The position numbers and the translations under genes were made by a program. The notes under the pieces are model-generated. The model was given only the letters and a program-made list of their open reading frames with translations, made no database searches and had not been told where the DNA came from. 32,926 nt of DNA from Methanothermococcus okinawensis (GTDB taxonomy: Archaea > AGJL01 > Methanococci > Methanococcales > Methanococcaceae). Positions 10,032-29,760 of this stretch are shown here, piece after piece (positions within the stretch are counted from its first letter, which is position 1; each line of letters starts with the position of its first letter). Location: assembly GCA_015662355.1 (NCBI GenBank), contig DQUI01000063.1, forward strand, positions 1-32,926, in the 5' to 3' direction.

Positions 10032-11267
10032 ATGGATTTTGGCACTACCAAGTACGTCATATATGCTGAACTTGTTGCAGATGGATACGTGGAAAAAAAT
10101 GATATAATCGGTGCAATATTTGGTCAAACTGAGGGATTACTCGGTGGGGATCTAGATCTAAGGGATCTTCAGAAGAGTGGTAGAATTGGACGTATCGACG
10201 TGGAGGTTATCAACGACAACGACGGAAAATCTTATGCAAAGATAATCCTCCCCTCTAGTTTAGACAGAATCGAGACAGCTATTATTGCCGCTACCTTAGA
10301 GACTGTAGATAGGGTAGGCCCCTGTGCAGCTAGGATAGAGGTAAGGGATATAAGAGATATTAGGGCTGAGAAACGTCAGTATATCACTAACAGGGCAAAG
10401 GAGCTTTTAGAAACACTTATGAACAGTATGACTGATATCCAGGACATAGCTGAGGAGATAAGGGAGTATATTAGAACTAGGGAGATAGTGGAATACGGTG
10501 AAGAGAAGTTACCTGCAGGTCCCAATATAGACAGTTCAGACAGTATAATAGTAGTAGAGGGAAGGGCAGATGTTCTAAATCTACTAAGGTGTGGGATTAA
10601 AAATGTAATAGCAGTTGGAGGCACCTCTATACCTAAGACTATAGTGGAGTTATCCAGGAAGAAGATCACCACTATATTTATCGATGGTGACAGAGGAGGG
10701 GAACTTATACTGAAGGAGTCCCTTCAGCGGTGTGATATAGACTATATAGCAAGGGCTCCTAAGGGCAGGGAGGTGGAGGAACTCTCCAAGAAGGAGGTAC
10801 TGAAGTATTTAAGGTTGAGGGTGCCAGTGGAACAGTATCTCCAACAGATACATACAGGGATGGATATCCCTAGGGGAGAGGATGGAGATGCTCCCTTAGA
10901 GGTGATAAAAGATAGTTTAAACAATAACGGCAACTCTACTAAGGAGTTGTTAACCTTCAAGGTATTCAAAAGTGGAGATCAGGATTTACAGTTAAAATAT
11001 ATCCAGCTGTCTATTAAGGAGATAGAGGGAACTAATAAGATAAAACTGATATCTCCAACCTTTGAAAAGATACTATCTATAGAGGAGTTGTCAGAGGATC
11101 TACTTCCTGAGGTATCCTTCCTCATCTCCGATGCCCCTATAACCCAGAGGATAATAGATAGATTTTTCAACGGTCTAAACTCTAATTTAGTTATAATTGG
11201 GAGGGAAATATACGTAACTAAAAAACCCTCTAACTTGAAGATCTTAAGGTATGAGGATGTGATGTGA
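10032..11267 (+). CDS. dnaG: archaeal DNA primase DnaG
   Basis: Start chosen at ATG 10032 (MDFGTTKYVIYAELVADGYVEKNDIIGAIFGQTEGLLG). Toprim motif SIIVVEGRADVLNLLRCGIKNVIAVGG. The track's 9-residue extension is judged spurious. Confidence 0.95.
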   Translation: MDFGTTKYVIYAELVADGYVEKNDIIGAIFGQTEGLLGGDLDLRDLQKSGRIGRIDVEVINDNDGKSYAKIILPSSLDRIETAIIAATLETVDRVGPCAARIEVRDIRDIRAEKRQYITNRAKELLETLMNSMTDIQDIAEEIREYIRTREIVEYGEEKLPAGPNIDSSDSIIVVEGRADVLNLLRCGIKNVIAVGGTSIPKTIVELSRKKITTIFIDGDRGGELILKESLQRCDIDYIARAPKGREVEELSKKEVLKYLRLRVPVEQYLQQIHTGMDIPRGEDGDAPLEVIKDSLNNNGNSTKELLTFKVFKSGDQDLQLKYIQLSIKEIEGTNKIKLISPTFEKILSIEELSEDLLPEVSFLISDAPITQRIIDRFFNGLNSNLVIIGREIYVTKKPSNLKILRYEDVM

Positions 11268-11618: not shown

Positions 11619-12062
11619 ATGGACATGGAGAAGAAGATTACACTTATTGGTAGTAAATTGGCGAAGACCGGTAATGAGTTTATCTATTACGGAATGTTAA
11701 AGGAGTGTGAAAGTTGTAAGTCTAAGAAGATATGCCACGAGGGTATGGTTGTAGGGAGGAGGTACAGGATCCTCGGTGTTAGATCTGCAGATCATCCCTG
11801 TGGCGTCCACGAAGGGGGAGTTAAAGTTGTAGAGATTCAACTGTCCCAGGAGATACCTATGCTGATAGAATCTAGGAAGGCGTTAGAGGGTTTAACCCTA
11901 TCTGACAGTATAAGATGTAACAACATAGTCTGTGAGAACTACTTCCTATGTAATCCAGAGGGTTTAACTGAGAAGTACAGGATTATAAAGGTATTTAAAG
12001 ATAAGATATCCTGCTCAAAAGGGTACTCCCTGAGAAAAGTGATAGTATCTCCAGTGGATTGA
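11619..12062 (+). CDS. UPF0179 family protein
   Basis: KKITLIGSKLAKTGNEFIYYGMLKECESCKSKKICHEG...GRRYRILGVRSADHPCGVHEGGVKVVEI: cysteine-rich UPF0179 pattern. Confidence 0.85.
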   Translation: MDMEKKITLIGSKLAKTGNEFIYYGMLKECESCKSKKICHEGMVVGRRYRILGVRSADHPCGVHEGGVKVVEIQLSQEIPMLIESRKALEGLTLSDSIRCNNIVCENYFLCNPEGLTEKYRIIKVFKDKISCSKGYSLRKVIVSPVD

Positions 12063-12090
12063 AAGATATTTATAAAAAGAGTGAAATATA

Positions 12091-12150
12091 ACTGCTCAGC
12101 TGTCCCCGATGTCATCACAGATCAGTGAAGTCGGCACTCATCATTGCAGT
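12091..12150 (-). ncRNA. C/D box guide sRNA
   Basis: Minus strand reads ACTGC-A-[ATGATGA C]-GTGCCGACTTCA-[CTGA D']-TCT-[GTGATGA C']-CATCGGGGACAG-[CTGA D]-GCAGT. Boxes: C 12138-12144, D' 12122-12125, C' 12112-12118, D 12096-12099. Two 12-nt guides; terminal stem 12091-12095 with 12146-12150. Confidence 0.92.
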
Positions 12151-12173
12151 GCAACGTTATAGATGTAGTTCCC

Positions 12174-12187
12174 TATATAAATATTTA
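12174..12187. promoter_or_regulatory. TATA-like element, usable by the sRNA (minus) and the downstream marker-15 gene (plus)
   Basis: tatataaatattta: AT-rich near-palindrome about 25-30 nt from both the predicted sRNA 5' end (12150) and the GTG start at 12205. Confidence 0.5.
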
Positions 12188-12204: not shown

Positions 12205-13440
12205 GTGACAGTGAAGATAGCAGAGTTAACCTGTGGCCCTGAGTACAGTGGAGTTCAAGGGGAAATTGAAAAGGCTGCAAGGGAGGTTGGAGGGGAGATA
12301 ATATTCCCTGAAGTAGATCTAGATTATATAGAGAGGGTCAATAGGGAGTTAGGTTTTGATGTAGCCTCTACAAATTTAAAACTTATGCTTGCAAGGGCCA
12401 TGTCCATTATAGAGGGGAACACAGATGCAGATGCTGTATTTGTAGCCACATGTTTCAGATGTGCAGAGGGTGCCCTTGTGAGAAATGAGGTTAGAAAACT
12501 TATTCAGCAGTACACAGATCTTCCTGTTGTTATGTACTCCTTTACAGAGAGGACCAAGGCATCAGAGCTGTTAACAAGGATGGAGGCCCTAGTGACTGTA
12601 GTGGAGAGAAAGGCACTGTTAGTTAGAAAGAGACAGGAGGGTATTAGCCTAGGTATAGACAGTGGATCTACAACTACAAAGGCTATAGTTATGAAGGATA
12701 ACGAGATCGTTGGAAAGGGATGGGTTTATACCAGGGACGTTATAGAGTCTGCAAAGGAGGCTGTAGATGAGGCGCTGAAGGAGGCAGGGTTAAAGATGGA
12801 GGATATTGAAACTATAGGAACTACAGGTTATGGAAGACACACAGTAGGGGAGTACTTCAAGGCAGATCTTATACAGGAGGAGCTAACTGTAAACTCCAAA
12901 GGCGCTGCCTTCCTAGCAGATAAACAGGAGGGGGAGGCAACAGTTATAGATATAGGAGGTATGGACAACAAGGCTATCTCCCTTAACAACGCCATACCTG
13001 ACAGTTTCACCATGGGAGGTATCTGTGCAGGTGCCAGTGGAAGGTTCTTCGAGATCACTGCAAGGAGGTTAGGGGTGTCCCTTCAGGAGTTAGGAGAGAT
13101 GGCTGCAGAGGGAGACTGGAGAAAGATTAAGATGAACAGTTACTGTATAGTCTTTGGTATCCAGGACCTAGTTACAGCTCTGGCAGAGGGTGCCGATCCA
13201 AAAGATGTGGCAGCTGCAGCTGCCCACTCAGTTGCAGAACAGATATACGAGCAGCAACTTCAGGAGGTAGATGTAAGGGATCCTGTAATACTTGTAGGAG
13301 GTAGTAGTCTCCTTAGAGGTATGGTACTGGCATTGGAGGAGATACTAGGTAGAAAGATAGTAGTACCCCCTTACTCCCAGCATATAGGTGCAGTAGGTGC
13401 AGCAATTCTAGCCTCTGGATACAAGTACTTCAAGGAGTAG
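12205..13440 (+). CDS. methanogenesis marker protein 15 (BadF/BadG/BcrA/BcrD-type ATPase family)
   Basis: [27 protein letters not shown]...[13 protein letters not shown]...[14 protein letters not shown]...[19 protein letters not shown] start after GGTGAT. Confidence 0.88.
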
Positions 13441-29670: not shown

Positions 29671-29760
29671 GCGGAGGTGGCCCAGCCTGGTACGGCGCGG
29701 GACTGCTAATCCCGTTGGGCGTTATGCCCATCCCGAGTTCAAATCTCGGCCTCCGCGCCA
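29671..29760 (+). tRNA. tRNA-Ser (anticodon GCU), CCA encoded
   Basis: Acceptor GCGGAGG/CCTCCGC, anticodon arm CGGGACTGCTAATCCCG, long variable arm TTGGGCGTTATGCCCATC, T arm CCGAGTTCAAATCTCGG, 3' GCCA. TATA-like TTTATATA about 40 nt upstream; T-rich downstream tract. Confidence 0.96.

Follow-up and report, generated by a model that had tools for sequence, protein, structure and literature searches.

The minus strand between the UPF0179 and methanogenesis marker 15 genes of this archaeon carries a string of C and D boxes in the order expected of a guide RNA. Is this a working C/D box double-guide sRNA gene, and if so, which nucleotides would it address? We examined the locus within its window, the whole stretch of 32,926 nucleotides that was analyzed, and followed it through related genomes.

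A C/D box double-guide sRNA gene in the intergenic region

Read from position 12150 to 12091, the minus strand is ACTGC-A-ATGATGA-GTGCCGACTTCA-CTGA-TCT-GTGATGA-CATCGGGGACAG-CTGA-GCAGT, with one unpaired A between the closing stem and box C (Table 1). Stem, boxes, 12-nt guides and 3-nt spacer correspond letter for letter to the architecture described in a first-pass annotation, and the matches to PF03684 and TIGR03286 agree with the position it gave between UPF0179 and marker 15. T-rich stretches lie downstream of the relatives' sRNAs as well. The TATA-like element could equally be assigned to the divergent marker 15 gene. Apart from the sRNA, the only RNA gene that turned up in the window was a tRNA-Ser(GCU) at 29671-29760 on the plus strand.

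Table 1 Coordinates of the sRNA gene, its parts and its flanking features in the window.
Feature	Position	Strand	Remarks
C/D box double-guide sRNA gene	12091..12150	-	core from C to D 12144..12096, plus closing stem
Closing stem 5' arm, ACTGC	12146..12150	-	compensatory changes, 35 orthologues
Box C, ATGATGA	12138..12144	-	sequence and relatives
D' guide GTGCCGACTTCA	12126..12137	-	predicted pairing with 23S GGAAGUCGGCA; predicted methyl site equivalent to E. coli 23S 1670
Box D', CTGA	12122..12125	-	sequence and relatives
D'-C' spacer, 3 nt	12119..12121	-	mostly 2-10 nt among relatives; a single one has 59 nt
Box C', GTGATGA	12112..12118	-	sequence and relatives
D guide CATCGGGGACAG	12100..12111	-	predicted pairing with 23S CUGUCCCCG(G); predicted methyl site equivalent to E. 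coli 23S C1994
Box D, CTGA	12096..12099	-	sequence and relatives
Closing stem 3' arm, GCAGT	12091..12095	-	compensatory changes among orthologues
T-rich stretch 3' of the sRNA (around TTTCACTCTTTTTATAA)	12070..12086	-	candidate terminator, proposed from sequence
TATA-like TTTATATA	12173..12180	-	candidate promoter element, slightly more than 20 nt upstream of the stem; a weak signal in AT-rich DNA
UPF0179 gene (PF03684)	11619-12062	+	flanks the sRNA
Methanogenesis marker 15 gene (TIGR03286, 751 bits)	12205-13440	+	flanks the sRNA

Single motifs such as CTGA and TGATGA are frequent in AT-rich DNA, and a box-like string might arise by chance or persist as a decayed, functionless remnant. The complete arrangement behaves differently: a strict pattern (RTGATGA, 9-14 nt, CTGA, 2-12 nt, RTGATGA, 9-14 nt, CTGA) has a single site in the 32.9 kb, the sRNA at 12150..12091, and produced 0 matches in 1418 simulated windows of equal length (order-2 Markov, both strands searched), against which a looser C/D pattern gave 2 matches. 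The gene is moreover kept in 35 of 36 genomes, with co-variation both within its stem and between guide and target, as detailed below. Judged from the sequences, chance or decay has next to no probability left and is already refuted by the conservation.

An Rfam search at gathering thresholds returned nothing at the sRNA locus. With thresholds opened, the strong matches there were all C/D RNAs, the best having E values of 7e-7 to 1e-6: sR1 (RF01152) with 7e-7 and snoPyro_CD (RF00095) with 1e-6, the latter scoring 36.7 bits where gathering demands 45. The locus thus resembles the archaeal C/D box double-guide sRNAs of the sR families, RF00095 and RF01152 in its boxes, 12-nt guides and k-turn stem, but differs from the Rfam C/D families in that none reaches its gathering score, and hence represents a guide pair without an Rfam family of its own. 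Folding of the sRNA strand alone was unexceptional (z = -0.34), as expected of a k-turn guide RNA.

The sequence features that mark archaeal C/D box sRNAs are present. The boxes are exact copies of RUGAUGA and CUGA, internal C' and D' boxes exist, both guides fall within about 10-14 nt, the terminal stem covaries in 35 orthologues, and both guides are complementary to the 23S rRNA of relatives with the N+5 base paired. The genome also encodes the partner proteins, the Nop5 (PF01798, PF21667) and fibrillarin (PF01269) genes being adjacent on contig C52. Conservation, the covarying stem, the joint variation of guide and target, and the presence of Nop5 and fibrillarin all support the double-guide reading of the first-pass annotation.

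Conservation of the sRNA across the Methanococcales

We searched 41 genomes, including 36 Methanococcales (the genome itself, 11 of the same genus, 10 more of the same family and 14 of a second family). Orthologues with both guides were present in 33 of the 36, namely 22/22 in the first family and 11/14 in the second. Two further second-family genomes, G025 and G034, kept the gene and the D guide and had the D' guide replaced. No orthologue was found in the sole remaining genome, G035, which is 81% complete and split into about 270 contigs.

Loss of boxes or guides in close relatives had been named beforehand as evidence that would speak against the gene; instead, both are nearly invariant among the orthologues (one, in G015, has an identical D' guide), and it is the D'-C' spacer that varies, from 2 to 10 nt and once reaching 59 nt. 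This long spacer (G012:C1:1455244-1455355, L030) is unusual for an archaeal C/D sRNA and could form a hairpin of its own (GTGAAA...TTTCAC). A contig labelled Bacteroidales (L145, around 2602-2720) begins with an sRNA of the G012 type and then diverges; probably it is a methanogen contig that was mis-binned or is a chimera.

The closing stem is maintained via compensatory changes. Across the 35 orthologues, pair 3 is TA in 22, CG in 11 and GC in 1; pair 4 is AT in 16, CG in 11, GC in 6 and TA in 1; and pair 5 is AT in 22 and TA in 10. Genomic surroundings are less constant. UPF0179 and/or marker 15 lie next to the sRNA in nine genomes of its own genus, AMMECR1 takes this place in nine second-family genomes as well as in G025 and G034 (most Methanocaldococcus-type genomes), and the remaining genomes have other neighbours. 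Since the neighbours differ while the RNA persists, the sRNA constitutes a gene in its own right rather than a side product of transcription from an adjacent gene.

The D' guide and its predicted 23S target

The genome bin was found to contain no 16S or 23S genes, and targets were therefore sought in relatives, using the 16S rRNA of 10 relatives and the 23S rRNA of 24 genomes in which the target region could be read. In the nearest relatives supplying targets, the sRNA regions are 92-95% identical. Complementarity to a stable RNA, as the first-pass annotation had supposed, was found for both guides in the relatives' 23S rRNA, over 10 bp for D' and 8-10 bp for D.

The D' guide forms its 10 bp with 23S GGAAGUCGGCA / GGAAGUCGGCAA. 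In all 23 genomes having both guide and readable target, positions 2-11 pair with at most one G-U, and position 5 lies opposite a G that aligns with E. coli 23S C1670. Shuffled guides reached 10 bp in 41 of 3000 trials; for the D guide, 9 bp were reached by 175 of 3000 shuffles. Taken singly, the guide matches are thus only moderately unlikely, and the evolutionary evidence is the strong part.

The 16S motif that the first-pass annotation had named for this guide, AUGAAGUCGGAAUCGC, did not hold up. In Methanococcales the site reads TGAAGGCGGAAT or TGAAGCCGGAAT, with mismatches at positions 6 and 10, and it was rejected as the D' target in favour of 23S GGAAGUCGGCAA. A different 16S site, UGAAGUCGUAAC / UGAAGUCG in the decoding region, pairs with the D' guide over 8 bp and is a possible second target by complementarity.

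Could G1494 at this decoding-region site (UGAAG*UCGUAAC) be the real D' target in place of 23S? In several genomes the 8 bp run without a break from position 1, and methylation of 16S G1494 has been predicted for Methanococcus maripaludis, in which only 7 C/D sRNAs are listed (Dennis et al. 2015, PMC4644070); the source of that prediction is possibly the M. maripaludis orthologue of the present sRNA. However, the C and G at guide positions 9-10 never vary and are mismatched to 16S and paired to 23S, whereas position 1, beside box D', varies (A/G/T). In 16S rRNA of the Methanocaldococcus and Methanotorris types, position 1 is a C, leaving 7 bp, and in G025 guide and 23S changed together while 16S did not. 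We therefore regard 16S as the principal D' target as improbable and retain the 23S site as the predicted one.

Three-way covariation of the D guide, its target and helix 61

The D guide pairs with 23S CUGUCCCCG in the relatives, and its position 5 aligns with E. coli 23S C1994. In this case the first-pass annotation was right: the 23S motif it had named, GGCUGUCUCCACC around E. coli 1994, is where the D guide pairs in the relatives.

Position 8 of the D target is C in the first family and G in the second, and the guide is altered to match. Counting from position 2, first-family guides have a paired run of 8.55 on first-family targets and second-family guides one of 9.18 on second-family targets; in both cross-combinations it falls to 6.0. 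The changed position sits inside helix 61, the other strand of which has changed too (CCAGCCG to CCGGCCC). The D guide, its target and the opposite strand of helix 61 hence form a three-way covariation.

The same 23S site in other archaea

A wider scan used the D' module pattern with either base allowed at the methyl position. Beyond the Methanococcales it gave eleven Thermoproteota and Nanoclepta loci (L128, L129, L130, L135, L136, L140, L141, L146, L156, L158 and L162), all reading TGCCGAGTTC and thus carrying the compensating base, along with scattered bacterial matches that look like chance. Among these genomes only Nanoclepta has a 23S record; its 23S rRNA reads GGAACUCGGCAA, with the base C as predicted. 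Together with the TGCCGAGTTC guides, this indicates that distant archaea, too, have C/D RNAs directed at the E. coli 1670-equivalent site. These RNAs share the site with the Methanococcales sRNA, the guide base compensating for C versus G. They differ in having other, varying partner guides, and common descent is without support. The Nanoclepta partner guide has its best 23S match 335 nt downstream of the D' site.

Replacement of the D' guide in two genomes

In G025 the base at the D' methyl site of 23S is C instead of G. Its sRNA (L122, about 1420-1475) has the D' guide AAACTTTTAACT and the D guide AGCCTGGGACAG; the latter still pairs at 11 positions with the 1994 site, and for AAACTTTTAACT no convincing rRNA target was found. 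Loss of the sRNA from G025 was considered and ruled out, as the gene can be read upstream of AMMECR1. The G034 sRNA (L117 301-480 / L121; G034:C30:about 10245-10310) retains the D guide and has AAGGGTTATAGG as its D' guide. This replacement forms 10 bp with ACUAUAACCCUC of the relatives' 23S rRNA, which we would place in the helix-69 region. Guide modules have elsewhere been reported to be fluid (PMC4644070).

A separate, complete C/D box sRNA was seen in G025 (G025:C1:about 538870-538940, L118), with the guides AAATTTCGCTAT and CTACTCCCGCAG; AAATTTCGCTAT matches 23S GUAGCGAAAUUC at 11 positions.

Proposed mechanism and the position of the targets at helix 61

The locus is very probably an archaeal C/D double-guide sRNA gene that is transcribed on its own into an RNA of about 60 nt, which together with L7Ae, Nop5 and fibrillarin would direct 2'-O-methylation at two predicted 23S nucleotides. 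We infer transcription, RNP assembly and methylation for an RNA whose anatomy, conservation and co-variation are observed directly. After assembly with the three proteins, the sRNA would base-pair to 23S rRNA. Through the D' guide, a 2'-O-methyl group would be placed on the asterisked G of GGAAG*UCGGCA, which corresponds to E. coli 23S 1670; through the D guide, another would be placed on the asterisked C of CUGUC*CCCG, corresponding to E. coli C1994.

The two sites are about 300 nt apart and lie just past helix 61 on opposite strands (CCAGCCG/CGGCUGG), distant in sequence and near in secondary structure. Given this position, one may speculate that the sRNA also holds the two strands together while the 50S subunit assembles, and that it stops the end of helix 61 from closing. 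Helix 61 has been named a methylation hotspot, and long-range guides including Ignicoccus sR114 and Thermoproteus sR51 are listed as possible chaperones (PMC4644070, Table 3). Like the present sRNA, these two have a pair of 23S sites about 300 nt apart and close in secondary structure; their sites fall near E. coli 1650-2010 as estimated from the anchors in that paper, so that the likeness in position is approximate, and no orthology is claimed.

Such parallels, the flanking of helix 61 by the two targets and the Nanoclepta sRNA, which combines the D' site with a second site 335 nt away by the best match of its other guide, would fit an RNA that acts mainly as a folding chaperone joining the helix 61 strands, with methylation secondary. 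We consider this rather unlikely, as G025 and G034 replaced the D' guide and did not lose the D guide, which argues that bridging is dispensable. Predicted methylation at the two 23S sites remains the preferred reading. A combined scenario, in which an order-wide sRNA clamps the helix 61 strands with its two guides and one guide was retargeted in a Methanocaldococcus lineage in step with the rRNA base, is conceivable, although we hold it only tentatively.

Meaning for the Methanococcales

Seven C/D sRNAs are catalogued for M. maripaludis C5 (Dennis et al. 2015, PMC4644070), and the main text of that paper gives no prediction for M. maripaludis beyond 16S G1494. The seven may already include the orthologue of the present sRNA. 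As far as sequence comparison can tell, the locus is a real guide RNA of a well-known class, and the comparative support for its predicted targets is unusually good. Few archaeal guide RNAs have been traced across a whole order, and the present one occurs in nearly all genomes examined. Its guide co-varies with 23S rRNA, which yields concrete predicted methylation sites beside helix 61, and G025 and G034 offer a natural instance of one guide module being swapped and the other retained. If the clamping and retargeting scenario were true, these genomes would form a natural series for telling the methylation role of double guides from a chaperone role.
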